DNA from: Marivirga atlantica
GTDB lineage: Bacteria > Bacteroidota > Bacteroidia > Cytophagales > Cyclobacteriaceae
Assembly (NCBI RefSeq): GCF_016734805.1
Contig: NZ_JAERQG010000003.1
Location: forward strand, 372,001-436,000
Direction of reading: 5' to 3'
DNA length: 64,000 nucleotides
The position numbers were made by a program, and so were the translations under genes. The notes under the pieces were generated by a model that saw only the letters and a list, made by a program, of their open reading frames with translations, ran no database searches and was not told the DNA's origin. Shown here piece after piece: positions 10,220-42,355 of the stretch (its first letter is position 1; every line of letters starts with the position of its first letter).

Positions 10220-10221
10220 AT
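10151..10221 (+). promoter_or_regulatory. 13-bp inverted repeat overlapping the subtilisin start codon
   Basis: The left arm 10151-10163 (ATAAAATTTGGTT) is exactly complementary to the right arm 10209-10221 (AACCAAATTTTAT), with a 45-base interval. The right arm covers the A and T of the ATG at 10220. In RNA this stem would bury the start codon; in DNA it could be a dyad for a regulator. The arms are AT-rich, so the stem is of moderate stability. Confidence 0.5.
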
Positions 10222-13200
10222 GAAAAAGTTTCTTACTCCCCCTATGCGGGCGGTGAAAGGAAGTTTTAGAGGACTCATATTGGGTTCACTAATGCTAGGG
10301 GCTACTGCCTCCTTCGCCCAAGACAAAATTACAACCACTCCAAAACATGATGCTCAAACAGTTAAATTTAGAGGGCACAATGCTATTCAAGGAGTTGTTC
10401 GAGTAAAATTCAAAAACACAAAAGATGTTGAGCTTAAGCTTGAAAAGCTAATTTCTGACAACAAAAATGGAAGAATCAGCAAAGGTGCTAGCAACTACCT
10501 GAGACTTCCTGATTTCCCGGAATTTAGTGCCAGAAATAGTGAGTTTGGTGCTATAAATATGAAACGTGTCTTCCGCCCAGCTGGCAAGTATGAAGCAAGA
10601 CACCAAGAGTGGGGACTTCACCTGTGGTACGAGATCGAGTTTAAAAATGCAGCTGATTTAGATAGAGTATTAGATGCCTATTCAAAAGTAGCTGATGTTG
10701 CCGTTGCCGAGCCTCGTTATGAAATGTCTTTAAATACACTTTCAGGTGCTCCTAACGATCCTCAATATTCAACTCAGGCTAACCACTATGATTTAATCAA
10801 TGCTTTGGATGCCTGGGGAATTGAAACCGGTTCGTCAGATGTAGTTGTAGCCATTGAAGATCAAGGTGTAGATTACACTCACCCGGATTTGCAGGGCCAT
10901 ATGTGGACCAACCCAGGAGAAACTCCAAACAATGGTATCGATGATGACAACAATGGCTATGTAGATGACTACTATGGTTACAATTTCGGTAACGACAACG
11001 GAAACATAGCTATTAACTATCATGGTACACATGTTGGTGGTACTGTATCAGCTGAAACCAACAATGGTGTTGGTGTAGCCGGTGTAGCTGGTGGCTCAGG
11101 AAGTGATGACGGTGTTAGATTAATGTCCTTATCCGTTTTTGGCAATAATGCTCAAGGTGGATTCGATGAAGCATTTATCTACGCAGCAGATAATGGTGCC
11201 GTAATCTCTCAAAACTCTTGGGGTGGCGGTTCTCAATCAGCTGCGCTGGAAAATGCTATTGACTATTTCATTGCAAATGCCGGTGGTTCAGGACAACCTC
11301 TTAATGGTGGATTAGTAGTTTTTGCTGCAGGTAATAGCAATAGCCAAACAACAGGTGCTTACCCTGGTAGATACGCACCTGTGCTATCAGTAGCTTCAAC
11401 CACTTACAACGGCACTAAATCAAGCTTTTCAAATTATGGCTCATGGGTAGATATTTCAGCTCCAGGCTCTAATATTTTGAGTACTTACCCAGTTTCTCAG
11501 GGTAGTTATAATACTATCTCAGGTACTTCAATGGCCTGTCCACACGTTTCCGGTGTTGCTGCACTTGTAGCCTCAAAGGCATGGAGAGATGGTGCTCCTT
11601 TAACAGCTGCGGAACTAAGAAGCCGTTTAGAAAGTACAGCCAACTTTGACCTGCTTTACAATGCCAATTCCAGTACCTATGATGGGAGATTGGGTGCCGG
11701 TATGCTAGATGCTTATGCTGCCCTAGGTGGTACTGGTGGTGGCGGAGGTGGCGGCACCTGCGATGATACTGAGGTAACCCTTACACTTACTACCGACAAC
11801 TACGGTTCAGAAACTACATGGTCATTAACTGATGGCTCAGGATCAACAATTGCTACTGGTAGCGGTTATGGTAACAACCAAACTTACACAGAAACTTTCT
11901 GTTTAACAGACGGAGACTACACCTTTACTATTAATGACTCTTATGGCGATGGTATTTGCTGTTCTTATGGTAATGGTTCATATGCTATCAGCGATGGTTC
12001 TTCTACTTTAATTTCAGGAGGAGAATTTACATCTACCGAAAGTAAAGATTTCACTATTGGTTCTGGTGGAGGCACTTCTTGTGACACACCAACAGGTTTA
12101 GCATCCTCTAATGTTACTTACAATAGCTTTACAGTTTCATGGAATGCTGTTTCGGGTGCATCTTCATATGATGTTGAAGTAAATGGATCTATTGCTTCAG
12201 ATGATGCGACCAATACTTCTGTAAATTTAACTGGCGCTAGTGCTAATACTACCTATTCAGTAAAGGTAAGAGCTAATTGTTCAGGTGGTTCATCTGCCTA
12301 CTCGTCTGCTATAAGTGTTACTACTCCAGATGAGCCTTCAACAGGAGGATGTACAGGTGGCATTTCATCATTCCCTTATACCGAGAGTTTTGAATCTAGC
12401 TTAGGCGCCTGGTCAAACGGATCAGGAGATGATACTAACTGGACAAGAGATTCTGGTGGAACTCCTTCTAGCGGAACAGGTCCTTCAAGTGGCTCCGCTG
12501 GTTCTTATTATGTATACCTGGAAGCTTCAGGTAATGGTACTGGCTTCCCTAATAAAACAGCTTACTTGAATAGCCCTTGTTTTGATTTATCAGCTGAATC
12601 GGAAGCTAGTTTCTCTTTCGACTACCACATGAATGGTACAGCAATGGGTTCTTTAGCCTTGCAATTGAGCAGTAATGATGGCTCGACATGGACCACCGCT
12701 TGGTCAATTTCAGGAACTCAGGGTAATTCATGGCAATCGGCTTCAGTTGATTTAGCAACTTACTTAGGTGGTTCTGTTCAGGCGCGCTTCCTGGCAACTT
12801 CCGGTTCTAGCTGGTCTTCTGATATCGCCATAGATAATATTTCTGTTGGCTCAGGCTCTGGCGGAGGAGGAAACTCTGCTGTTACGCTTACGCTTGTTAC
12901 GGACAATTATGGTTCTGAAACTTCATGGACACTGACTGATGATGGCGGAAGCACAATAGCTTCTGGTAGTGGCTATGCAAACAACCAGACTTATACTGAA
13001 ACCTTCAACTTGTCTGGCGGCTGCTATACTTTCACCATCAACGATTCTTATGGCGATGGTATTTGCTGCTCTTACGGAAATGGTTCCTACACCCTAGCTG
13101 ATGGAAGCGGTGTAATCGCTACTGGTGGAGACTTTAATTCTAGTGCTACTGAAGACTTCTGCGTGAGTGGTACTTCTGACTTTGGTTTATTCTCTGAGAA

Positions 13201-13459
13201 TACACCAACAAGTACTGAGTTAGACAAATTTGGTTTTACAGCTTTCCCTAATCCGGCAAGCTCTTCCATCAATATTAGATTAAGTGGCTCAACAGAAGCC
13301 AATTTTATCATAGTGGACATCACAGGTAAGGAAATGTCACGAGGTACGATTGCTAATAGCGAAAAAACTATCTCTATTAGTCACTTACCTAGTGGAATGT
13401 ATATTATTAAAGCCACTACAGGTGAAACATCCATAACTCAGAAGATTATCAAGGAATAA
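10220..13459 (+). CDS. Secreted subtilisin-family (S8) serine protease with T9SS sorting domain
   Basis: Exported endopeptidase, 1079 residues. A signal peptide ends near residue 34 (ASFAQ), followed by a propeptide to about 180. The catalytic domain (about 195-500) has Asp214 in AIEDQGVDYTHPD, His268 in HGTHVGGT and Ser437 in GTSMACPHVSG, a complete triad. After a glycine-rich linker come a calcium-site-like module (about 519-613), a fibronectin type III domain (about 625-710), a MAM-like jelly-roll domain with FPYTESFES (about 720-880), a second copy of the first module (about 887-983), and a Por C-terminal domain with FPNPASSSINIRL and an IIKE end. It should leave the cell by type IX secretion. 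Its own terminator is at 13519. Confidence 0.93.
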   Translation: MKKFLTPPMRAVKGSFRGLILGSLMLGATASFAQDKITTTPKHDAQTVKFRGHNAIQGVVRVKFKNTKDVELKLEKLISDNKNGRISKGASNYLRLPDFPEFSARNSEFGAINMKRVFRPAGKYEARHQEWGLHLWYEIEFKNAADLDRVLDAYSKVADVAVAEPRYEMSLNTLSGAPNDPQYSTQANHYDLINALDAWGIETGSSDVVVAIEDQGVDYTHPDLQGHMWTNPGETPNNGIDDDNNGYVDDYYGYNFGNDNGNIAINYHGTHVGGTVSAETNNGVGVAGVAGGSGSDDGVRLMSLSVFGNNAQGGFDEAFIYAADNGAVISQNSWGGGSQSAALENAIDYFIANAGGSGQPLNGGLVVFAAGNSNSQTTGAYPGRYAPVLSVASTTYNGTKSSFSNYGSWVDISAPGSNILSTYPVSQGSYNTISGTSMACPHVSGVAALVASKAWRDGAPLTAAELRSRLESTANFDLLYNANSSTYDGRLGAGMLDAYAALGGTGGGGGGGTCDDTEVTLTLTTDNYGSETTWSLTDGSGSTIATGSGYGNNQTYTETFCLTDGDYTFTINDSYGDGICCSYGNGSYAISDGSSTLISGGEFTSTESKDFTIGSGGGTSCDTPTGLASSNVTYNSFTVSWNAVSGASSYDVEVNGSIASDDATNTSVNLTGASANTTYSVKVRANCSGGSSAYSSAISVTTPDEPSTGGCTGGISSFPYTESFESSLGAWSNGSGDDTNWTRDSGGTPSSGTGPSSGSAGSYYVYLEASGNGTGFPNKTAYLNSPCFDLSAESEASFSFDYHMNGTAMGSLALQLSSNDGSTWTTAWSISGTQGNSWQSASVDLATYLGGSVQARFLATSGSSWSSDIAIDNISVGSGSGGGGNSAVTLTLVTDNYGSETSWTLTDDGGSTIASGSGYANNQTYTETFNLSGGCYTFTINDSYGDGICCSYGNGSYTLADGSGVIATGGDFNSSATEDFCVSGTSDFGLFSENTPTSTELDKFGFTAFPNPASSSINIRLSGSTEANFIIVDITGKEMSRGTIANSEKTISISHLPSGMYIIKATTGETSITQKIIKE
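11774..13171 (+). repeat. Two-copy intragenic repeat in the subtilisin gene
   Basis: Copy 1 at about 11774-12058 and copy 2 at about 12879-13165 encode nearly identical modules starting TDNYGSET and containing TFTINDSYGDGICCSYGNGSY. DNA similarity is high in the GATGGTATTTGCTG region. The two copies flank the fibronectin and MAM-like domains, so a recent internal duplication, or convergence maintained by recombination, is likely. Confidence 0.85.
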
Positions 13460-16742: not shown

Positions 16743-19700
16743 ATGAGTAAATCCAAAAAAACAATAATCTTAATTATATTTTGCTTTAAATTCACTTCTC
16801 AAATCTTTGGGCAATATATTGAAAATGATTTTTCACCCGCTTTCACTAGAGAGGCCCACATCTCTTATTCACATATGCAAGGAGATAAAATTGTAATTGG
16901 TGGCCGGTTTAATCAAGTAAATCAATTCAATACTAACGGCATTGTAATATTGAATGAGGACGGCACAGTGTATAGAGCACCAAACAATGAGATCCTAAAT
17001 CAAATAAGTTATGTTAATGTCCTATCCTCAACAGATAGTCTTGCTCTTATCAAAGATTCAGATCAATCTAGGGATTACCTTTACAATTTTGTTTCAAATG
17101 AGGTAGAAGAAATCACCTTTGATTCTTATTTATATTCAGGATTAATCTCACCAGACAATAACTATATTTTCGGAATATTCTATGAAAAAAGCTTAGACGA
17201 ATTTGTGGTAAAGAAATATAATCTTGATGGTACATTGGATGAAAATTTTGACATAGTAAGACTAAATAATTGGGTATCTGGTTTAACCTATTTAAACGAT
17301 GGTAGCCTTATTGTGTTTGGATATTTTGACCAAGTTAATGATACTGATATTAACAAAATGGTTAAAATAAGTAATAGTGGTAAAGTAGATGATAGTTTTA
17401 ATGCGGGTGAAGCATCGAATAATATTGAAAAAGTTTATGAGAATAATGTAGGCGATTTATTTGTTTCAGGCTACATAACAAGTTTTGATAACAATCCGGT
17501 TTCTGGCGGATTAATAAAGCTAAATAATAAGGGCCAGTTTGATAATTCTTTTAGCCTAGGACCAACAGGGAATACTTTTAGCCGGGTAACAGATATTAAA
17601 TTTGACAATAACAATAAAATTCTGGTAACAGGTTATAGTATTTCCAGCGAAAGCATGCATAAAGTAATTAGAATTAGAATGGATGGAAGTTTCGATTCAA
17701 GTTTTAATATGCCTGAAACAAGTAATGAAATTTCATATTTTACTGGTCCTTCCTTTTTAGAATCACTTAGTAATAATAATACTCTATTACTAGGGAATTT
17801 TTTGTCAATTGATAAGAATTTTGCTCCCAGTTCAGGTGTAATTAATTCTAACGGACAATTTGATGGTTATAATGTGGCATTAAAAAGCCCCGGCCATATA
17901 AGTACTTCTGCTAAGCAAACAGATGGCAAAATACTGGTTTCTGGTAATTTCGGATTTATAAATGATAAGGAGATATATAGAATTGCTAGAATTTCACAAA
18001 ACGGTGATGTTGATAATAGTTTTATGCTAGACTCAAACATTCATATTCAAGACTTAACCAATGTAATTCTACAAAACGATAACAAAATAATTATTTCAGG
18101 CTATTTCGAAGTTGGAAACAGCTCTAACATAAGACAAATAATAAGGCTGCTTCCTGATGGAAACTTGGATTATACGTTTGATGCTGATATTTATATTTCA
18201 TCAGATGTTCCAATTGCGTATGATTATAGAACTAAGGATGTCTATGCTTTAAATCCTTATGTCAAAAATGACATTATACGTACAGATTCTTTAGGAGCTA
18301 AAGATTTAAATTTTTCAACGGAAAATGTCTTTCCAAACGATTTTAGAATTACTTCAATATTTCCTGACATCAATGGAGAGATTTTTGTTTCAGGTTACAC
18401 ATACGTTAATGGCTCTTTAACTGGTGGAGAATTATATAAAATAAATAAAGAAGGAATTTTAATCGAAGATTTCGTTGTAAATAATATTCCTCAGAGCATT
18501 ACTGATTTAAAAAGAATTAGTAATGGCACTATTATTTATGTTGGAGGATTTGTAACCAGCTTTAGTTCGACAGATCCAAACCCTATTTATTTTATTAATA
18601 ATGAAGGAGAAATTATTGATCAAACTTCATTTGCAACTCGTGGAGCAAATAATGTGTCTGACAATGTAGTTTTTGAGATAGTCCTCAACAAAGATTCAAC
18701 TGAGGCTTTACTATTGGGTAGATTTGAAATGATAAATGAACATCAGTCAGGTCAAGTGGCTCATATTAACTTAAGTGGAACCGTTGATAAAGAGTTTACC
18801 TTCTATGTTAAAGGTCAAACTAATACCGGCATCATATATGATCAGAAATTATCATTTTTTGGTAACTTTTCAATTTTAACTGATTCAGCTAAATACTCTG
18901 CAGGTCAGATTAACCTAAAAAACTATATACCCGATATTTTAGGTACTAGTAGTGAATTATCCATACTAGAAGATTCGGTTTTATTAGTAGAGGCTAGTAT
19001 TTTAGATATTGTTGATCTTGATGATACAGATCATAACCTAATTGCGCTGCCAGGTGATAATTATTCGGTTTCAAACAATAATGAAATACGACCTGACACT
19101 AATTATTTTGGAAATTTAAGTATTCCTATCAGAGTAACTGATACTAAGGATACAAGTGACATTTACAATATTGAATTAGTAATTATAGCGGTTAATGATG
19201 CACCTTCATTGGTAGATTATACAGAATTTGAAATATTTGAGGATAGCTCATTTAACATAACTTTGAACAACCTGATAATTGAAGATCCAGATTCAGAAAT
19301 TCAGAATTTAACTTTTACCATATTTGAAAGCGAGCACTATACTATAGAAAATCAAGAAACTATTGTCCCCGAAGAAAATTATTTTGGTGAATTAAATATT
19401 CACATTGTTTTATCTGATGGAATAGATGAAAGCGATTCATATTACATACCAATAGAAGTTTTAGCCGTAAATGATGCTCCAATTATTCAAGGGATTACTT
19501 CAGAAATTGCTATTGCTAAAAATTTTAGCTACGAATTTAAAATTGAGGATATCAATATTTTTGATCCCGATAATTCTATTGAAGACTTAGCTCTTGTAAT
19601 TTTTGATGGCGAAAACTATACACATAATGACAACGTAATTACACCGGATCAGAATTTTGGCGGAACACTCAGTGTTAATTTCAGTGTAAATGACGGGGCT

Positions 19701-20030
19701 GATTCTAGTAATAAATTTGTTTTACCAATAATTGTTTCTTCTATACTTTCTAATAAAGACCTGAGTTCTTTTGATCAGTCAGGAATATTTCCAAATCCCA
19801 CCAATGGTATTGTAAATATTCAAATTGACGATGCCTATATTGGTAATTTAATTATTATTATACACGATTCAAATGGTAAAGAAATAGCCAACAGAAGCCA
19901 TAATAAAACATCTCAATCTGAGGTTTTTAGTTTAAATACTCAAGAGTTTCAAAATGGCCTTTATCTACTGAAAATTAAATCAGAAAATGATAGATTTGCT
20001 GAATCACATAAGATAGTCGTTAAAAAGTAA
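16743..20030 (+). CDS. Delta-60 repeat, Ig-like T9SS-secreted protein
   Basis: 1095-residue exported protein. The signal peptide ends near residue 24 (FGQ). About residues 30-735 contain beta-propeller-like units of roughly 55-60 residues, each with a core such as G-x-F-x-x-V-N and the calling card N-x-D-G-x-x-D-x-S-F; this is the delta-60 repeat pattern. Three cadherin/Ig-like modules follow, each introduced by a VNDAP motif (about residues 817, 914 and so on). The C terminus has FPNPTNGIVNIQI and ends VVKK, a Por secretion domain. Likely a cell-surface or extracellular protein; ligand unknown. It is in the same orientation as the subtilisin but is separate from it. Confidence 0.85.
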   Translation: MSKSKKTIILIIFCFKFTSQIFGQYIENDFSPAFTREAHISYSHMQGDKIVIGGRFNQVNQFNTNGIVILNEDGTVYRAPNNEILNQISYVNVLSSTDSLALIKDSDQSRDYLYNFVSNEVEEITFDSYLYSGLISPDNNYIFGIFYEKSLDEFVVKKYNLDGTLDENFDIVRLNNWVSGLTYLNDGSLIVFGYFDQVNDTDINKMVKISNSGKVDDSFNAGEASNNIEKVYENNVGDLFVSGYITSFDNNPVSGGLIKLNNKGQFDNSFSLGPTGNTFSRVTDIKFDNNNKILVTGYSISSESMHKVIRIRMDGSFDSSFNMPETSNEISYFTGPSFLESLSNNNTLLLGNFLSIDKNFAPSSGVINSNGQFDGYNVALKSPGHISTSAKQTDGKILVSGNFGFINDKEIYRIARISQNGDVDNSFMLDSNIHIQDLTNVILQNDNKIIISGYFEVGNSSNIRQIIRLLPDGNLDYTFDADIYISSDVPIAYDYRTKDVYALNPYVKNDIIRTDSLGAKDLNFSTENVFPNDFRITSIFPDINGEIFVSGYTYVNGSLTGGELYKINKEGILIEDFVVNNIPQSITDLKRISNGTIIYVGGFVTSFSSTDPNPIYFINNEGEIIDQTSFATRGANNVSDNVVFEIVLNKDSTEALLLGRFEMINEHQSGQVAHINLSGTVDKEFTFYVKGQTNTGIIYDQKLSFFGNFSILTDSAKYSAGQINLKNYIPDILGTSSELSILEDSVLLVEASILDIVDLDDTDHNLIALPGDNYSVSNNNEIRPDTNYFGNLSIPIRVTDTKDTSDIYNIELVIIAVNDAPSLVDYTEFEIFEDSSFNITLNNLIIEDPDSEIQNLTFTIFESEHYTIENQETIVPEENYFGELNIHIVLSDGIDESDSYYIPIEVLAVNDAPIIQGITSEIAIAKNFSYEFKIEDINIFDPDNSIEDLALVIFDGENYTHNDNVITPDQNFGGTLSVNFSVNDGADSSNKFVLPIIVSSILSNKDLSSFDQSGIFPNPTNGIVNIQIDDAYIGNLIIIIHDSNGKEIANRSHNKTSQSEVFSLNTQEFQNGLYLLKIKSENDRFAESHKIVVKK

Positions 20031-20093
20031 CATTTCTTTAAAATTGCATGAACTATTACGTCAAGTTGAACCGCCAGAGGTCTTTAGGGTTTA

Positions 20094-20807
20094 ATGTTTA
20101 TGTATAAATCAATTTTATCCCTCGGCTTATTATTAAGTCTCAGTATTACCTGCACAGCTCAGCAAGATAGTAGCCGCTATACTTTCAAAGAAGGTAGTTA
20201 TGATGGTATTGGCAAATGGTACCTCGGCAGAGAAATAGCGCATGTAATGGGCTATCAGGGGATGAGCTGGCTGGAACGCGATAGCAGAGAAAAAGAAGAA
20301 AACACTTCCCGTTTAATTAAAAATATGGACATTCAGCCGGAGGATGTCATTGCTGATATTGGAGCAGGCTCGGGCTATCATGTGTTTAAAATGGCTCCGA
20401 TAGCCAGTAAAGGAAAAATTTATGCGGTAGATATTCAAGAGGAAATGCTTGCAGCCATAAGAAAGAAAAACGAGGAAAAAGGGATTGATAACATTGAATT
20501 AGTGAAAGGAAGCGAAAAGAGCGTAAACCTAGCCGCCCATAGTGTAGATAAGGTATTGATGGTAGACGTTTACCATGAATTTAATTTCCCCTATGAGATG
20601 ATCCAGAGCATCAAATCAGCTTTAAAACCGAATGGTGAAATATTTTTGATCGAGTACCGGGCGGAAGACAAAAGCGTGCCTATTAAGCCTCTCCATAAGA
20701 TGAGTGAAACCCAAGCCGTGAAAGAAATGCAGGCTGCAGGCTTTAAACTCAAAGAAAATATAAGTAACCTACCCTGGCAGCATTGTATGGTGTTTGTAAT
20801 AGAATAA
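20094..20807 (+). CDS. Exported class I SAM-dependent methyltransferase-like protein
   Basis: 237 residues. A signal peptide (LGLLLSLSITCTAQ, residues about 9-22) precedes a Rossmann methyltransferase domain: motif I VIADIGAGSGYHVFKMAP (about 82-99), motif II YAVDIQEEML, then LMVDVYHEF and a PNGEIFLIEYR strand. The start is ATG 20094 or 20100. The combination is odd because S-adenosylmethionine is cytosolic. Such exported methyltransferases occur in many Bacteroidota and Proteobacteria; their substrate is unknown. The protein could be a periplasmic enzyme or a non-enzymatic derivative, although the SAM-binding glycines look intact. Confidence 0.75.
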   Translation: MFMYKSILSLGLLLSLSITCTAQQDSSRYTFKEGSYDGIGKWYLGREIAHVMGYQGMSWLERDSREKEENTSRLIKNMDIQPEDVIADIGAGSGYHVFKMAPIASKGKIYAVDIQEEMLAAIRKKNEEKGIDNIELVKGSEKSVNLAAHSVDKVLMVDVYHEFNFPYEMIQSIKSALKPNGEIFLIEYRAEDKSVPIKPLHKMSETQAVKEMQAAGFKLKENISNLPWQHCMVFVIE

Positions 20808-21092
20808 TACAAACAGTTAAGTAGCTCTTCAGCAAGAAAATTGTTTTATATAGGGTTATTGTTTAATTTATTGCCATGTTGAACCAAAACCAACACAAAG
20901 CTCTCTCACTAAACGATAACAAACGCTTACAATCGGTTATCAAAAATATGAGCCTGATATAACAACTTTGGTTACTATATTCGGATGTTTTGCACAAGCC
21001 AAGCAACCCCATCAATTAAAAATAAACTCCAGGATTTTTTGCATTCTAAAATTCTAGCCTTATTATTGCGGTATCAATAATTGTAACATCAA

Positions 21093-21518
21093 ATGAAAAT
21101 TGAAAACGTTATACTTTTCCAAATTGACAAAACAAGCAAAATCGCTAAGCTATACTCGCAACGAGAATTTGAAAGGTTAGGAATGGGTATAACTGTTGAA
21201 CAATGGATTTTATTAAAGATAATTGAAGAAAATGATGGGCTAACTCAAAAAGAGCTAGCTGCCAAATCTCTCAGGGATCCTGCCTCTATTACGAGAACAT
21301 TAGACCTATTAAATAAAAAAGAGTTCGTAGAAAGAAGGGCCGTTGAGGATAATAGGCGACAGTACAGCATATGTCTTACAAGAAATGGAAAAACCTTTAT
21401 TGATAAATTTATGCCCATAATCAATAATCATCGGTCAAAAAGTATTGATGGTATTTCCCAAGATGAGTTAAATACGCTAAATCGACTGCTAGAAAAAATT
21501 CAACAAAACATGCATTAA
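21093..21518 (+). CDS. MarR-family transcriptional regulator
   Basis: 141-residue winged-helix repressor. The recognition region is DGLTQKELAAKSLRDPASITRTLDLLNKKEFVERR (in pieces, about residues 48-82), followed by the wing VEDNRRQYSICLTRNGK. MarR proteins bind palindromes and respond to small ligands or redox. The next gene (RidA-like) starts 46 bases downstream and between them is a perfect 12-bp dyad, TTGATATATCAA. A related TATCAA half-site precedes the regulator's own start. It probably controls the RidA and DOMON genes and possibly itself. Confidence 0.9.
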   Translation: MKIENVILFQIDKTSKIAKLYSQREFERLGMGITVEQWILLKIIEENDGLTQKELAAKSLRDPASITRTLDLLNKKEFVERRAVEDNRRQYSICLTRNGKTFIDKFMPIINNHRSKSIDGISQDELNTLNRLLEKIQQNMH

Positions 21519-21535
21519 AAAATTTGTTTATTAAA

Positions 21536-21547
21536 TTGATATATCAA
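21536..21547. promoter_or_regulatory. Palindromic candidate MarR operator
   Basis: TTGATATATCAA, a perfect 12-bp dyad, with an additional TTGATAC ten bases further, 18 bases upstream of the RidA-like start. The form resembles known MarR-family boxes. TATCAA also occurs at 21072-21077 just before the marR ATG. Confidence 0.5.
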
Positions 21548-21564
21548 CTATTGATACTAAAAGA

Positions 21565-22017
21565 ATGAAAACAATAATTATCTCTATTACTCTTGCCCTA
21601 AGTTCATGTAGTATGAAATTATCTACTATTAATAGTTCTGATGTCTATAAAACCAGTGAATTGGGTTTTTCACAAGCAGTAGTTTTCAATCAAGTAATCT
21701 ATGGCTCAGGACAGGTGGGTTGGAACACAGACTACAAGTTACCCGAACATCCCACCTTCAATAATCAATTTGAGCAAACCCTGCAAAACATAGAACACTT
21801 ATTACAAAACCAAGGGTGCGGTTGGCTAGATGTACTACATCTTAGGTTTTATGTTGTTGATATTAATGCCAGCAAGATAACACGTATAAGCAGTTTTCTA
21901 AAAACGACTTTTCCAAACAACTATGCACCTGCTACAACTCTGCTTGGTGTATCGGCATTGGCAAGAGAAAACCTTCAAATTGAAATCGAATTCATCGCTA
22001 AAATCAAAAAACAATGA
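21565..22017 (+). CDS. RidA/YjgF-family lipoprotein
   Basis: 150 residues with a lipobox (LALSSC, Cys at about 15), so an envelope member of the RidA superfamily. The body carries AVVFNQVIYGSGQVGW, QTLQNIEHLL, RFYVVDIN and the C-terminal ALARENLQIEIEFIAKI. RidA deaminates reactive enamines, but the catalytic arginine of the R-x-x-x-x-x-x-I-E-I-E context is replaced here (the residue before the ENLQIEIE segment in that column is Leu), so classical activity is doubtful. Its stop codon overlaps the next ATG by four bases (ATGA), indicating coupling to the DOMON gene. Confidence 0.75.
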   Translation: MKTIIISITLALSSCSMKLSTINSSDVYKTSELGFSQAVVFNQVIYGSGQVGWNTDYKLPEHPTFNNQFEQTLQNIEHLLQNQGCGWLDVLHLRFYVVDINASKITRISSFLKTTFPNNYAPATTLLGVSALARENLQIEIEFIAKIKKQ

Positions 22018-22511
22018 AAACATTAATCATTTGCACGGCAATGCTTTCAGTTTGCCAATTTCATCAAAAGACTAACATGAAAGAAATAACCAAAAACAAC
22101 ATGACGGTAAAGTGGGAGATTGAACAAGGTCTCATCTACTTTGAAATGGAAGCAACTACGGACGGTTGGGTGGCAGTTGGTTTTAATGAAAACAGCTCTT
22201 TAACCGGTACATACTTAATAATGGGGCGTGTAAAGGACGGAAAACCCGAAGTTGTAGAGCATTACACATCCAAACCAGGAAGCTACAAACCTATTAATCA
22301 ATATGGAATAGCTAGCCAAATAAAGATCATCTCAGGAACTGAAGCAGGAAATTTTACCAAATTAAAATTTTCGATACCAGTAACAGCCGCAAGTAAGTAT
22401 CACAAAGAACTCTTAACTGACAGCAAGTGGACACTGTTAATGGCCTACAGTTTAGATGATGACTTTCAGCATCACTCCATTATGCGAACATCCGTAGACA
22501 TAAAACTTTAA
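22014..22511 (+). CDS. DOMON-domain protein
   Basis: 165 residues. A short hydrophobic N terminus precedes a DOMON beta-sandwich: VKWEIEQGLIYFEMEATTDGWVAVGF (in parts), GTYLIMGRVKDGK, and a C-terminal FQHHSIMRTSVDI. DOMON domains bind heme or sugars. The Met in LIMGR and a His of the HH pair occupy places where heme-binding DOMON proteins have their Met/His ligands, so a b-type cytochrome role is possible but unproven. It overlaps the RidA-like gene by four bases and is likely under the same MarR control. The first ATG at 22014 could also give way to 22077; the first supplies an export signal. Confidence 0.7.
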   Translation: MKTLIICTAMLSVCQFHQKTNMKEITKNNMTVKWEIEQGLIYFEMEATTDGWVAVGFNENSSLTGTYLIMGRVKDGKPEVVEHYTSKPGSYKPINQYGIASQIKIISGTEAGNFTKLKFSIPVTAASKYHKELLTDSKWTLLMAYSLDDDFQHHSIMRTSVDIKL

Positions 22512-22540
22512 AATTATGTGCACCAATAAACAAATCAGAC

Positions 22541-22562
22541 CACCCTAAAATCAGGATTCACC
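22541..22562 (+). promoter_or_regulatory. CACCyTAAAA-type motif, copy 1
   Basis: CACCCTAAAATCAGGATTCA upstream of the NTF2-like gene. It resembles 23174-23190 (before the AraC gene) and 24397-24416 (before the hydrolase gene), so it may be a shared operator of the AraC regulator. Confidence 0.35.
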
Positions 22563-22607
22563 CTCACAAATTGAGTATTAATTAATCAAAATTTAAAAAC
22601 AAAAAAA

Positions 22608-23033
22608 ATGAACAAAATAATCTTAATGAGCATATTTGCTCTTTTTACCGCTGTAAGCTGCTACGCTCAAAATTCTGACGAGAAAGCTATCAAACAAACA
22701 ATTATAGGATTCTCGAAAGCAGGAGACGTCAACGATGCCGATAAATTAGCCACCTATTTAGATGACAGTTATCGTATTGTTATGAATAGATTGTTTGGAA
22801 GTAAGGAAGTCGCTATAATGCCTAAGGATGTTTATCTTGAAAAAATCAAAACGAAGGAGTATGGCGGAGATAGCAGAAAGGTTGATATTGAATCCATCAC
22901 GCTAAATGGTACTTCCGCAAGTGCAAAGGTTTCATTTATAGGAATCAAAATGACCTTTGTATCTATCCTGACACTCATAAAAGACGGAGACAATCAATGG
23001 AAAATTGTGAGTGATGTACCAATCATAAAATAG
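22608..23033 (+). CDS. Exported NTF2-like (SnoaL/lumazine-binding type) protein
   Basis: 141 residues with a cleavable signal peptide (about 1-20, ending CYAQ). The mature chain, DEKAIKQTIIGFSKAGDVNDADKLATYL and later ITLNGTSASAKVSFIGIKMTFVSILTLIKDGDNQWKIVSD (in parts), has the alpha+beta cone pattern of NTF2-like proteins, the kind named putative lumazine-binding. No enzyme residues can be assigned. Its stop codon lies eight bases before the left attC-like repeat, the arrangement expected of the last gene of a cassette. A motif shared with the AraC-regulated region lies upstream. Confidence 0.7.
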   Translation: MNKIILMSIFALFTAVSCYAQNSDEKAIKQTIIGFSKAGDVNDADKLATYLDDSYRIVMNRLFGSKEVAIMPKDVYLEKIKTKEYGGDSRKVDIESITLNGTSASAKVSFIGIKMTFVSILTLIKDGDNQWKIVSDVPIIK

Positions 23034-23040
23034 TGCCTGT

Positions 23041-23171
23041 GCACAACATCATATAAAAGCAATAGCGGTTTGGGTGCAAACTCAAACCGTTTTTGCTTTA
23101 ATTTAAGTATCTTGCTTTGCGAAAAGTAATTGCATAAAATCCGCTACTGCTATTATACGTTACCGTTGGGC
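23041..23171 (+). repeat. attC-like repeat, left copy
   Basis: About 131 bases with end boxes GCACAAC (23041-23047) and GTTGGGC (23165-23171). The right box fits the integron core GTTRRRY; the left matches RYYYAAC at 6 of 7 positions. Inside is a hairpin, CGGTTTGGGT / ACTCAAACCG with a GCAA loop, and an outer palindrome pairing about 23051-23069 with 23140-23158. The first 72 bases (23044-23115) align without gaps to 26174-26245 with 61 identities by hand count. Confidence 0.7.
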
Positions 23172-23173
23172 GT

Positions 23174-23190
23174 CACTTAAAAAAGGACAC
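23174..23190 (+). promoter_or_regulatory. CACCyTAAAA-type motif, copy 2
   Basis: CACTTAAAAAAGGACAC just upstream of the AraC-family gene, a degenerate version of the motifs at 22541 and 24397. Consistent with autoregulation, but weak alone because it is A-rich. Confidence 0.25.
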
Positions 23191-23199
23191 TGCAAATAA

Positions 23200-24321
23200 A
23201 TGATATACTTAATCGGGATAACCATAACATTCTTTTTGTCATTTATTTTGTTAATGAAAAAGGGAAAAAGCGGTGCAGACAGAATACTTTTCGCATGGCT
23301 TTGTGTGATTTTGGTGCAATTGATTTTATTTTCGATTATTTCCTCAAATAAATACTTGGAGTTCCCATACTTATTGGGATTTGAAATACCAATACCCCTG
23401 TTGCATGGGCCTTTCCTTTTTATTTATACCTTGGTACTCACCTCAAGGCAGTTTTCCAGACCAAAAATGTTTCTTCATTTTCTACCCTTTTCAATTGGTT
23501 TAATTGCCACAATTCCTTTTTTAATACTAAGCCCTAAAGAGAAAATCCTTGTTTACCAAAATGAAGGTGAAGGATTTGAAACCATATCAATTATTATTTT
23601 TATTGGAATCATCCTGTCTGGCATTGCCTACACCATTTTATCACTACGAGTTTTAGTTAACCATAAAAAACTGATCAAAGACAATTTTTCCTCCATTGAA
23701 AAAATAAACCTGCAATGGCTTTTTAGATTAGTACTCGGCTTATCATGTATATGGGTCTTGGCTTTCTTTGCTGATGATGAAATTATTTTTTCATCTGTAG
23801 TCTTGTTTGTGGCTTTTATCGGGTATTATGGAATTAAGCAAGTGGGCATTTTTACTAATCAACAGGTTTTGGAACTTACTCCCGCCATTGAATACAAAGA
23901 ACTTGTTGAGCCATCCGTTGCTGAGGCTGAAGTTTCCAAGTATGACAATTCAGCACTTTCGGATAGCCAACTCAAAGCCATTCATGGTGAGCTGGTACAA
24001 TTGATGAAGCAAAAGAAATTGTTCCTTACACCTGAGCTGACTTTGAAAATGGTTGCCGAAGCACTTGAAATACATCCAAACACTCTTTCTCAAGTCATCA
24101 ATACGGTAGAACAAAAAAACTTCTTCGACTATGTCAACACATTGAGAATTGAAGAATTTAAAGAACACATTGCCATCCCAGACAATCAAAAATACACACT
24201 CCTATCGCTTGCTTACGAATGTGGGTTTAATTCAAAAACATCTTTCAATAGAAATTTCAAGAACCTCACCGGCAAATCTCCCTCCGAGTACCTAAAAGAG
24301 AATAAAGCAAGGATCGATTAA
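23200..24321 (+). CDS. Membrane-embedded AraC-family regulator
   Basis: 373 residues. About seven hydrophobic segments fill residues 1-215 (IGITITFFLSFILLM, LCVILVQLILFSII and so on), followed by a linker and an AraC-type DNA-binding domain (about 265-370) with LTLKMVAEALEIHPNTLSQVIN and the second helix-turn-helix LLSLAYECGFNSKTSFNRNFKNLTGKSPSEY in pieces. This 7TM-plus-AraC layout is frequent in Bacteroidota and is thought to couple a membrane signal to transcription. It is the first gene of a three-gene unit between two attC-like repeats and has a motif before it that recurs before neighbouring genes. Confidence 0.9.
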   Translation: MIYLIGITITFFLSFILLMKKGKSGADRILFAWLCVILVQLILFSIISSNKYLEFPYLLGFEIPIPLLHGPFLFIYTLVLTSRQFSRPKMFLHFLPFSIGLIATIPFLILSPKEKILVYQNEGEGFETISIIIFIGIILSGIAYTILSLRVLVNHKKLIKDNFSSIEKINLQWLFRLVLGLSCIWVLAFFADDEIIFSSVVLFVAFIGYYGIKQVGIFTNQQVLELTPAIEYKELVEPSVAEAEVSKYDNSALSDSQLKAIHGELVQLMKQKKLFLTPELTLKMVAEALEIHPNTLSQVINTVEQKNFFDYVNTLRIEEFKEHIAIPDNQKYTLLSLAYECGFNSKTSFNRNFKNLTGKSPSEYLKENKARID

Positions 24322-24396
24322 CCAGTTCATCTCCCACCCCAGATGGTTCAACTTCATAAGTGATAGATTATCAGCTGCATAACAATTAAGACAACC

Positions 24397-24416
24397 CACC
24401 TTAAAATTGGTTCCAC
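24397..24416 (+). promoter_or_regulatory. CACCyTAAAA-type motif, copy 3
   Basis: CACCTTAAAATTGGTTCCAC, 69 bases upstream of the hydrolase start. Compare CACCCTAAAATCAGGATTCA at 22541. Candidate operator for the AraC regulator encoded just upstream. Confidence 0.4.
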
Positions 24417-24484
24417 TTTTCATTTTGGGGCGATTGACAAACTGCATACGCTGACTTTTGCATCGAGCCTTAAAACTTGAAAGT

Positions 24485-25468
24485 ATGAACATAAAAATTC
24501 TGGCAGGCATTGGATTGACATTTATTCTATTGTCCTGCGAAAAAGAACTGGACATTCATGAACCAGGAAACTTAGTGCCAAAAACCGTGATAGAAGACCT
24601 CAGTTTACCTTCCATATCAGTAAATGGAACAACCCTACATGCTGAAACCTATGGAAACCCAGATAGCTCACTTGTTATTTTTCTACATGGAGGCCCTGGT
24701 TCAGATTACCAAAACGGACTGAACGTAAAGCAATTGGCAGATGACGGCTATCAAGTAGTATTCTATGACCAGCGTGGTACAGGCTTGTCACAAAGGCATG
24801 ATAAAAACAACTATTCTATCCAACTCTACTTGGACGACCTCACTGCGGTAATTGAACATTACAGGTCATCTCCCGCTCAAAAGGTCTTTCTCTTTGGTCA
24901 TTCATGGGGCGCAATGCTCACGGCAGCTTACATCAATGCGTACCCTGACAGAATTGATGGGGCTATATTCGCTGAAGCGGGTGGGTTCAACAAACAACTC
25001 CTTGATGAGTATGGGGAAGCAAGCCGAAAGCTGAACCTCTTTTCGGAAATCACAAATGATGTCCTGTTTTACGACCAGTTTCTGACCGGACGTGAAAATG
25101 AACACGAAATACTGGATTACAAGTTGGCTATAGCTTCAAGTTTTTCCTATGCAGAAGGCAATGACGAAGGTATTGAAGGGCCTTCAGCTTTTTGGAGGAA
25201 TGGAGCGACAGTCCTGCAAGCCTTTATGGACATTGCCGAAAATGAAGGTTTCGATTTTACCACCAACTTAAATCAATATCAAACCAAAGTCCTCTTTCTA
25301 TATGGAGAAAACAACAAATCCTATAGATTGAGATTTGCCGAAAAAGAAGCGGCATTTTTTCCGAAATCAGAAATTATTCAAATAGAGGATACCGGGCATG
25401 AAATGATTTATTTCAAATGGAATTCGGTCTATCCTGTGGTTCTTGATTATTTAAACTCACTAAACTAA
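24485..25468 (+). CDS. Alpha/beta-hydrolase lipoprotein, proline-iminopeptidase-like
   Basis: 327 residues from ATG 24485, chosen because it begins a signal peptide with a lipobox (LLSC, near residue 17); an upstream in-frame ATG at 24458 would spoil it. The hydrolase fold shows the oxyanion motif HGGPGSDYQNG, the YDQRGTGLS turn, the nucleophile Ser140 in GHSWG, a LYGENNK acid region and His in DTGHEM. The HGGPG plus DQRGxG pattern fits the prolyl aminopeptidase/iminopeptidase group, but substrate is unknown. It starts 163 bases after the AraC gene and four bases before the next gene. Confidence 0.85.
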   Translation: MNIKILAGIGLTFILLSCEKELDIHEPGNLVPKTVIEDLSLPSISVNGTTLHAETYGNPDSSLVIFLHGGPGSDYQNGLNVKQLADDGYQVVFYDQRGTGLSQRHDKNNYSIQLYLDDLTAVIEHYRSSPAQKVFLFGHSWGAMLTAAYINAYPDRIDGAIFAEAGGFNKQLLDEYGEASRKLNLFSEITNDVLFYDQFLTGRENEHEILDYKLAIASSFSYAEGNDEGIEGPSAFWRNGATVLQAFMDIAENEGFDFTTNLNQYQTKVLFLYGENNKSYRLRFAEKEAAFFPKSEIIQIEDTGHEMIYFKWNSVYPVVLDYLNSLN

Positions 25469-25472
25469 AAAC

Positions 25473-26147
25473 ATGAAGGGAATTAAAACTTGGATATTCT
25501 TAATAATGTCATTTTGTATTTACCAAAAAGGAAATTCACAAACGGTGAATTGGAATGCGCTGGAAGATTCAAAACATATCATCGCTGCAGGTATTGGTTG
25601 GGATTACAGTGTTTCTTATAGTTTGGGTTACGCCTACCAACTCAAAACTAAAGTACCCATAGTCCTGACTGGCAATTTTTCAATTCCTTCCGGTGAAAAG
25701 CTGTTGGATGACTTCAAAACCAAAATCGGAGGACAGGTTGTGCTCCTGAATAAATCCAATATGAAAGGAAGTATTGCTTTGAATGGGATCTATCGAAGGT
25801 ATGAAAATCCATTAGTACGATTGCAAAACTTTGGCAGTGAGTTAAGGGGTACATTGGGCTATTACAAACCGAAATGGTTTGTGGCAGGTGAAGTGGGTTT
25901 TGATAAAGCCATTGTCACGTATTTTAAACATTCCGAAACCTTCAAAGAAATAATCTTTACAGACGTAAAAGACGGTTGGTATGAACCTTCTACAGGAGGA
26001 AATTTCCTGTATGGCATTCAAACCGGCTACTCCTTCAACAAATCGGATATCACACTCAATATTGGTATGGTAACAACTCAGGACTTCAAAACCACTCCTT
26101 TAATACCCTATTATCTTATGTTAGGCTACAACTTCATAATCAACTGA
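25473..26147 (+). CDS. Exported outer-membrane-like protein
   Basis: 224 residues, not recognised. The signal peptide ends near residue 23 (GNSQ). The mature part alternates hydrophobic and polar residues over about 200 residues (HIIAAGIGWDYSVSYSLGYAYQLK, LRGTLGYYKPKWFVAGEVGF in pieces) and ends in a strand-like YYLMLGYNFIIN, as in outer-membrane beta-barrels. It starts four bases after the hydrolase stop, so the two form an operon, presumably controlled by the AraC regulator. The right attC-like repeat begins 23 bases downstream. Confidence 0.55.
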   Translation: MKGIKTWIFLIMSFCIYQKGNSQTVNWNALEDSKHIIAAGIGWDYSVSYSLGYAYQLKTKVPIVLTGNFSIPSGEKLLDDFKTKIGGQVVLLNKSNMKGSIALNGIYRRYENPLVRLQNFGSELRGTLGYYKPKWFVAGEVGFDKAIVTYFKHSETFKEIIFTDVKDGWYEPSTGGNFLYGIQTGYSFNKSDITLNIGMVTTQDFKTTPLIPYYLMLGYNFIIN

Positions 26148-26170
26148 TATTTTGAATAAAAAAGGCAAAC

Positions 26171-26302
26171 GCATAACATTATATAAGAGCAATAGCGGTT
26201 TAGGTGCAAACCTGAACCGTTTTTCCTTTTAAATAAGTATCTTGCAATCCAAAAGGTAGTCGCCTTAATATCTCCTACTGCCCTTATTCTTGACCGTTGT
26301 GA
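26171..26302 (+). repeat. attC-like repeat, right copy
   Basis: About 132 bases with ends GCATAAC and GTTGTGA. The internal hairpin CGGTTTAGGT / ACCTGAACCG keeps its pairing relative to the left copy through a compensated change (G-C to A-T) and two wobble changes. The 3,130-base spacing between copies spans exactly the AraC, hydrolase and outer-membrane-like genes. The right end box fits the integron core less well (GTTGTGA against GTTRRRY). Confidence 0.65.
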
Positions 26303-26322: not shown

Positions 26323-26694
26323 ATGGCATCTCCACTCAGACAAATTCAAGACATTCAAGTACAAGCTGAAAGACTGATTTCCAATAAAGCAAATCTTGAT
26401 CAAATAGCAGAATTCTCTAAATACAGTGATGAGATCAAGTTTTATCTCATGGAAAATATTGATGACGAAGAGATATTGTCATATGTAAGAGACATTCCAA
26501 CATTTGAAATTGAAGAATCCGAACTCAAGAAAACTGCGGAGGGAATTTTTGCAGGAATTCTATCCATTGCTTCTTATGGTCTAGCTGGATATTTTAGAAA
26601 TCAAAGAGCCAGAGATAAAGCCTTAGACGTAGTTCGTGACATAAGAAGTAAATATGCTTCGATAGAATTCATGTGTAGAAACTATTTTGAATAA
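26323..26694 (+). CDS. Small protein of unknown function
   Basis: 123 residues, not recognised. It has no signal peptide. The N-terminal 60 residues are helical and charged (IQDIQVQAERLISNKANLDQI, EIKFYLMENIDDEEILSYVRD in pieces), one hydrophobic segment lies at about 74-92 (GIFAGILSIASYGLAGYF), and the end is basic. It begins 21 bases past the right attC-like repeat, where a further cassette gene would stand, but no third repeat follows. It may be a membrane-associated accessory protein. Confidence 0.5.
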   Translation: MASPLRQIQDIQVQAERLISNKANLDQIAEFSKYSDEIKFYLMENIDDEEILSYVRDIPTFEIEESELKKTAEGIFAGILSIASYGLAGYFRNQRARDKALDVVRDIRSKYASIEFMCRNYFE

Positions 26695-26922
26695 ACTAAT
26701 CAGAACATACAATATAGCGCATAACCTTTCTTAGTTACCCCGGAAGTACCTGCGAAACATCTCATTTATCTACCACCAAGAATCTGAAGTGTTCTTCTAC
26801 CATTCTCACTCTTTACCTGAAACTTTGATCACATCGGCAGATAAGCTACATTTATTAGAATCAATTAGGCCTAGAGGCTACTATGCCGCACTAAGTGTTA
26901 TTCACAAGCCAAAAAAATCACT

Positions 26923-41455: not shown

Positions 41456-42355
41456 CTATCCTCTTGGATGAAAATCTTTTAAAGTTTGGCTTAAGAAATC
41501 CCTATCCAGATGTGTATAAATTTCTGTGGTAGTAATTGACTCATGGCCAAGCATTTCCTGAACGGCTCTTAAATCTGCCCCACCTTCAATCAAATGGGTT
41601 GCGAAAGAATGTCTAAATGTATGAGGGCTTACTTTCTTCTTAATACCGGCAAGCGCCACCTGCTTTTTTACCATGGTAAAAACTGATATTCTGCTGAGGC
41701 CAGCACCAAACCTGTTAAGAAATACGATATCTCTACTTTCAGGCTTCACATCCACATGTACCCGAACCTCATTTAAATAAATTTTCAAGAATTTTTGAGC
41801 ACTTCGTCCTATAGGCACAAGTCTTTCCTTGCTTCCCTTACCTATCACTCTTAAGAAGCCTATATCAAAATAGGTGTTAGATATTCTTAAATTGATCAGC
41901 TCTGACACTCTTAATCCAGAGCTATAGAGTACTTCCAGCATACACCTGTCTCTAGTTCCGTTAGATTCACTTAAATCAACCGCATTAAGTACTTGTTCTA
42001 TTTCTGGGAAGCTGAGTGTATCCGGTAGCTTACGACCTAATTTAGGGGCTTCTAGTTGTTCTGCCGGATTTTCACTTATCAAATCTTCAAACGTTAAATA
42101 TTTAAAGAATGCTTTTAAGCCTGAAATAATACGAGCTTGTGTATAATCAGCCATTCCCAACTCATTAATGTATTCAATAAAGTTGTGTAAATCGGAGATA
42201 TTTACCTTAAGCGGATCATCTTTAGGATTGGAGATATCCAAAAACTGTTTTAGCTTTAAAACATCGTGGCAATAGGCAGCAACTGTATTCTCAGAAAGAG
42301 ATCTTTCAAGATGCATATAATTTTCAAACTCTTGTAGAAATGTTTGCCAGGCCAT
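41456..42355 (-). CDS. xerD: Site-specific tyrosine recombinase XerD-type
   Basis: Resolves chromosome dimers at dif. 299 residues, exactly the XerC/D size. The N-terminal SAM-like domain covers about 1-90. The catalytic residues are Arg in SSGLRVSELINL (about 150), Lys in RVIGKGSKERLVP, the box HTFRHSFATHL (about 244) and His plus Tyr in LGHESITTTEIYTHL (about 270-282). Bacteroidota often have one Xer. It lies divergently only 20 bases from aroQ. XerD rather than XerC by the ELINLR style, but the two are not firmly separable here. Confidence 0.9.
   Translation of the reverse strand: MAWQTFLQEFENYMHLERSLSENTVAAYCHDVLKLKQFLDISNPKDDPLKVNISDLHNFIEYINELGMADYTQARIISGLKAFFKYLTFEDLISENPAEQLEAPKLGRKLPDTLSFPEIEQVLNAVDLSESNGTRDRCMLEVLYSSGLRVSELINLRISNTYFDIGFLRVIGKGSKERLVPIGRSAQKFLKIYLNEVRVHVDVKPESRDIVFLNRFGAGLSRISVFTMVKKQVALAGIKKKVSPHTFRHSFATHLIEGGADLRAVQEMLGHESITTTEIYTHLDRDFLSQTLKDFHPRG

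Follow-up and report, generated by a model that had tools for sequence, protein, structure and literature searches.

Repeats of the attC type in Marivirga atlantica point to an integron-like cassette system in Bacteroidota

In a stretch of 64,000 nucleotides from the Marivirga atlantica genome (henceforth the window), two direct repeats of about 131 bp surround the genes for an AraC-family regulator, a hydrolase and an outer-membrane-like protein. Are these repeats the recombination sites of integron cassettes, as a preliminary description had proposed, or an unrelated mobile element? Integrons are reported as nearly absent from Bacteroidetes, for which an earlier survey reported only In0, followed by one complete integron in Salinibacter (PMC9024848), and the available taxon-specific attC models cover no Bacteroidota (PMC8352920). 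Within the open-access literature, a scope that leaves preprints and most subscription journals outside, we found no prior description of such a system in this phylum. The observations presented here favor, with a probability of roughly 0.87 for the explanation as a whole, the reading that the repeats are attC-type sites belonging to an integron-like system spread widely through Bacteroidota.

A family of attC-like sites and the pairing of their boxes

The two copies, site A (131 nt) and site B (132 nt; Table 1), constitute the longest near-identical intergenic pair within the window, and their first 98 nt are 80% identical. Their positions around the three genes proved right, as did the box letters given for the left copy, GCACAAC and GTTGGGC; the corresponding boxes of the right copy are GCATAAC and GTTGTGA. 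The pattern is not a product of chance: an 18-nt core with at most three mismatches occurs in the window at sites A and B only, against an expectation of 0.04. The window contains another pair of repeats, of 214 nt and 75% identity (11769-13089), which lies inside a 1079-aa ORF (10220-13459) and probably represents protein repeats.

Taken alone, the repeats have unconvincing DNA folding energies (z of -2.1 to -0.8). Plain BLAST recovered just six clear copies of site A in the genome, and a structure model was therefore needed. The search of both copies against the genome and other Bacteroidota by BLAST and a structure model, which had been suggested as a check, yielded a whole family of sites. 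R1, a structure/covariance model derived from 38 diverse copies and covering one attC sub-family, detects 11 copies in the genome at E<1e-7, distributed over several contigs, with further matches in 50 of 59 relatives and in 67 of the 148 genomes sampled over Bacteroidota; Rfam has no family matching the repeats. The pattern ATCCGCTACTGCTYWTAYAC retrieves at least 119 stretches from genome contigs, the titles of which mostly name Bacteroidota or FCB relatives, the others being a small number of MAG contigs from other phyla. Across the 38 copies, 97% of the cells of the stem GTRTAWnAGCAnTAGCGG / CCGCTAnTGCTnWTAYAC are paired, with compensatory changes from GC to AU and from UA to AU, and the covariation score of the alignment was reached by none of 500 shuffles. 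This stem is flanked by AAC-AWT on the left and by nnnACC-GTT on the right, with the AAC and GTT being invariant. The covarying stem and the invariant AAC and GTT are those of an attC, that is, of an inverted repeat with R-type end boxes, which is predicted to fold as a single strand.

The ends of an integron cassette are the bases after the GTT of one attC and the bases before the AAC of the next, and complementarity is expected between them, but not necessarily between the boxes of one and the same attC. We compared such boxes in a sample of 92 sites from 16 arrays in 13 genomes, which provides 47 adjacent pairs at most 3 kb apart, at positions where R1 has no modelled pairs. The adjacent pairs match at 7/7 in 20 cases and at 6/7 in nine, together 29 of 47, as against 0.19% and 1.4%, respectively (1.6% together), of the 6994 non-adjacent pairs, while boxes of the same site match at a mean of 2.5/7. 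Moreover, the sites of each listed array share one orientation. Both ends of the cassettes in this family accordingly bear complementary boxes, and in the window the match is 6/7 for a first cassette and 4/7 for the unit behind it.

A cassette and a probable second one at the window locus

The actual left boundary of the cassette region, overlooked at first, is an attI-like copy ending at 20989. The TTGCACA after its GTT is complementary at 6/7 to GTGCACAAC, the box that opens site A; nowhere else in 18000-23041 does it have a partner with fewer than two mismatches. Hence, the first cassette extends from the attI-like site into the left repeat (Table 1). The NTF2-like gene indeed ends eight bases ahead of that repeat, at 23033, and it turns out to be the last of four genes in this cassette rather than a cassette in its own right.

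Table 1. Features of the window locus and of the recombinase locus (window positions unless a contig is named; sites A and B were both among the 38 copies from which R1 was built, which bears on their R1 scores)
Feature	Position	Strand	Remarks
attI-like module	20839..20989	+	conserved 34-mer 20956-20989; GTT 20987-20989
Cassette 1, four genes	20988..23165	+	left box GTTTTGCACA, right box GTGCACAAC, 6/7 complementary
MarR-family regulator	21093..21518	+	PF01047, E=2e-14
RidA / L-PSP family protein	21565..22017	+	PF01042, E=8e-23
DOMON-domain protein	22014..22511	+	PF03351, E=5e-18
Lumazine-binding_2 / NTF2-like protein	22608..23033	+	PF12893, E=4e-9
attC-like site A	23041..23171	+	GTT at 23165-23167; R1 118 bits, E 2.5e-23
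Probable cassette 2 (AraC, hydrolase, OMP-like)	23166..26296	+	box match just 4/7
AraC-family regulator	23200..24321	+	PF12833, E=5e-15
Alpha/beta hydrolase	24488..25468	+	PF00561, E=1e-22
Outer-membrane-like protein, 224 aa	25473..26147	+	no Pfam family
attC-like site B	26171..26302	+	GTT at 26296-26298; R1 99.5 bits, E 4.2e-19
123-aa ORF 3' of site B	26323..26694	+	
Tyrosine recombinase, 382 aa	L205:15821-16966		contig C6, other than the window contig; heads an array of nine detected sites

Cassette 1 recurs at 97% identity, beginning at the GTT, in a congener (G002), where attC, a gene for a 203-aa protein, attC, cassette 1 and attC follow each other consecutively with a matching box. The attC after the cassette is about 83% identical to its counterpart in that congener (L223), the break coming right after the first box, and simple cassette exchange does not account for this contrast with the 97% of the cassette. 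A conserved gene just 5' of the cassette (20203-20810) shows about 72-73% identity in five congeners, and the flanking genes of the locus have no synteny with congeners. A plasmid search found no copy of the window unit.

Given the attI-like head and a cassette 1 that ends in the left repeat, the three-gene unit is the second in order. That this unit is itself a cassette, the central proposal of the preliminary description, holds insofar as it has an attC directly at both ends, correctly oriented and separated from the operon by 28 nt on the left and 23 nt on the right. Its end boxes, GTTGGGCGTC and GTTATGCGTT, agree at 4/7, a level that 21.6% of random pairs also attain, and neither box of A and B finds a better partner anywhere in the stretch between them. 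The comparison of the 3.1-kb unit in relatives, likewise proposed at the outset, gave a mixed picture: a DNA search for the three genes found no match in nine congeners, and a genome of another family (G242) has all three at 81% identity without attC sites. These weak boxes and the attC-free copy leave the movement of the unit as one cassette unproven. They would also be consistent with a history in which the system moved cassette 1 alone, with the AraC-hydrolase-OMP operon arriving by another route, or with at least two cassettes whose middle site has decayed. The placement and orientation of the flanking sites speak against such a history, as does the GCGT common to both boxes, which is the expected remnant of a decayed match, and we regard it as unlikely, though as the most serious of the alternatives considered here. 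We therefore read the three genes as accessory DNA in cassette position, likely, albeit not proven, to be a second cassette. Beyond site B, whose right box has a weak 5/7 partner at 26697 (window 26694-26730) with no recognisable attC after it, the 123-aa ORF is possibly a decayed third cassette.

The recombinase and the attI-like sites

The earlier statement that no integrase is visible stands for the surroundings of the window sites, near which there is no recombinase of the family described below, the closest being an ordinary Xer at 41456-42355; it does not extend to the genome, which encodes a 382-aa tyrosine recombinase at the head of an array on contig C6. The cargo of this array comprises a PemK/MazF-type toxin gene with an adjoining small ORF, a beta-lactamase-fold hydrolase and a PAD-type deiminase. 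The recombinase combines an N-terminal part without Pfam match with Phage_int_SAM_4 and PF00589 domains, with the catalytic residues R, K, H, R, H and Y preserved across its family. It scores 198.6 bits against TIGR02249, for which the cut-off is 265, and 215 bits against NF040815 (XerA/integron integrase), the best NCBIfam model, for which it is 220. Only 23 of its residues correspond to the 66 residues 179-244 of V. cholerae IntI4 (2a3v), and the IntI insert is thus absent. An AlphaFold model of a relative from Eudoraea (pLDDT 76) has 2a3v as its top Foldseek hit, and the best PDB match of the recombinase by sequence is 4a8e. In a phylogenetic tree the family stands apart from XerC/D with a support of 0.98, and from IntI not firmly (0.59-0.70).

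About 10 nt past the stop codon of this recombinase, the conserved 34-mer of the window attI-like site recurs: GGATATAACAACTTTGGTTACTATATTCGGATGTT is followed there by CTACGCA, and the first attC downstream opens with the exact complement, TGCGTAGAAC. This arrangement is general. Sixteen of 20 recombinase loci, a count that stands without a shuffle null, have a GTT box 26-156 nt past the stop that is complementary to the first attC box downstream, exactly so in 11 cases; these GTTs usually lie behind a hairpin and their partner boxes 0.4-1.8 kb further on. An attI adjoining the recombinase gene and taking the first cassette, as is typical of integrons, is hence present. Further, the genome has about 14 copies of the attI-like sequence, some ten of them with a common upstream part of about 115 bp. 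This region may be a promoter; a simple regular expression for Bacteroidota promoters had no match in it. For 11 of the 14 heads, a box pairing with no more than one mismatch lies within 4 kb, where the null gives a mean of 1.1 heads and a maximum of 4; for eight heads the pairing is exact (null 0). As R1 represents one sub-family, other attC sub-families at these heads were detected solely via the complementarity of the boxes. Congeners possess their own versions of the attI-like sequence in one to four places. The window locus would be a satellite of the C6 array, furnished with its own attI-like head.

We propose that a recombinase akin to IntI and XerA, lacking the IntI-specific insert, would join GTT to GTT, the one belonging to an attI-like site or an attC and the other to the attC of a cassette. 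The attI-like site would comprise a hairpin and a GTT just 3' of the recombinase gene; the cut would fall between G and TT, and a circular cassette would be inserted, whose 5' box, TTRnnnnn, would be the complement of the 3' box in the cassette's own attC. The single gene on contig C6 would serve both the array adjacent to it and, by inference, some 14 dispersed attI-like sites in trans. At the window locus, this would have generated the order attI-like head, cassette 1, attC A, probable cassette 2 and attC B. More generally, we lean toward viewing these loci as a phylum-wide class of integrons with recombinases devoid of the IntI domain. A single such enzyme would supply many attI/promoter modules scattered around the chromosome, and the pool of cassettes would accordingly be distributed along it rather than confined to one array.

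The distribution of the recombinase bears on whether it is the enzyme at work. Among the 148 genomes, 41 have both a recombinase (E<1e-60) and R1 sites, 12 the recombinase alone and 26 R1 sites alone (Fisher p=4e-9), and weak TIGR02249 matches are located at array heads. In all 23 recombinases with an attC within 20 kb among the matches listed, the nearest site reads away from the gene, 18 being 3' on the same strand and five 5' on the opposite strand; 42 of 65 recombinases have no attC within 20 kb among the matches listed, which comprise at least 150 sites of the R1 sub-family. Alternatively, the attC-type system might be real and its cassettes moved by XerC/D or a rare true IntI, to which the head recombinase is merely linked. 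The 26 of 67 site-bearing genomes without the recombinase at the cut-off would fit this, as would the absence of the insert, a presumed requirement for attC recognition, and a true IntI, exceeding the TIGR02249 cut-off at 303 bits, in a genome of the same family as that of the window (G034:C13:43538-44470; L192). However, that cut-off is exceeded in just one of 59 relatives, and the co-occurrence with attC, the position at array heads and the matched attI directly after the stop codon in many genera make such a substitute enzyme improbable; we retain the head recombinase as the predicted catalyst. The congener that shares cassette 1 has 21 R1 sites and only Xer-level TIGR02249 matches, with no recombinase of this family seen. 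In five other genomes (G096, G104, G112, G184 and G124; L314-L316), mostly of family f40, the recombinase is shorter, at about 280-320 aa, and its gene diverges from the array, which is the orientation of classical integrons.

Exchange between genera and comparison with known systems

Loci of Allomuricauda, Flavobacterium, Flagellimonas, Kaistella, Mesonia and Sinomicrobium share a gene end and the attC behind it as a virtually identical block of at least 240 nt, mostly 400, and identity drops to chance from the first base past CGTT. The same pattern is seen in a second group of a Flavobacteriales MAG, Cyclobacterium and a Balneolaceae MAG, the last with about 180-200 nt. Judged from these alignments, the crossover would fall between the G and the TT of GTT, as in known integrons, the exact phosphodiester bond being beyond the resolution of sequence, and cassettes have been transferred between genera. 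A MITE- or REP-like repeat that inserts itself beside genes which are not its cargo, to which the length of about 130 nt, the hairpin, the scatter over several contigs and the repeat-free copy of the three genes in G242 could be ascribed, is very improbable, since gene and site travel across genera as one block up to CGTT rather than independently, boxes of different neighboring sites are complementary, which is unexpected for a self-inserting repeat, and the sites of the fetched arrays are uniformly oriented behind a recombinase-attI head. The unrelated mobile repeat that had been left as an alternative thus loses its ground, and the original attC reading is borne out by covariation, box pairing, crossover and recombinase heads in a system much broader than first proposed.

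Strictly defined, an integron requires IntI with its insert. As this insert is absent, the recombinase is not IntI in that sense, and the system is better described as an integron variant, which appears to work like an integron. With chromosomal integrons (IntI-attI-attC) it shares attC with unequal spacers, R-type boxes (RYYYAAC / GTTRRRY), the apparent crossover after the G of GTT, complementary cassette ends, arrays in one orientation, an attI adjoining the recombinase gene, and a cargo of toxin-antitoxin and unknown genes. In contrast to them, its recombinase lacks the insert, falls under the TIGR02249 cut-off and mostly has an extra N-terminal domain; the attI mostly follows the 3' end of the recombinase gene, in which case gene and array read in the same direction; attI-like copies are dispersed over about 14 places; and the host phylum was reported to be nearly integron-free. 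The window locus, with two attC and no recombinase nearby, also resembles a CALIN, the IntegronFinder term for a cluster of attC lacking an integrase, but differs in having an attI-like head and, elsewhere in the genome, a recombinase associated with the same attI-like sequence. The recombinase likewise recalls archaeal XerA and bacterial Xer proteins in its near-cut-off NF040815 score and its match to 4a8e; unlike these, it forms a branch separate from the genomes' own XerC/D, is tied to cassette arrays, and in most cases has an N-terminal domain without Pfam match.

If this reading is true, a large environmental phylum harbors an abundant inter-genus cassette system that has been hidden from surveys that rely on IntI and on attC models already known. 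A recombinase that works on attC despite lacking the insert would test which part of IntI the recognition of single-stranded attC needs, and would bear on the origin of integrons from Xer-like enzymes. A partial attC of the same kind is found on one Arenibacter plasmid. Elements resembling attC also occur in viral contigs of IMG/VR (L142-L148), most of them with a distinct GC-rich loop, GCGGGGCTTGGTTATACC.
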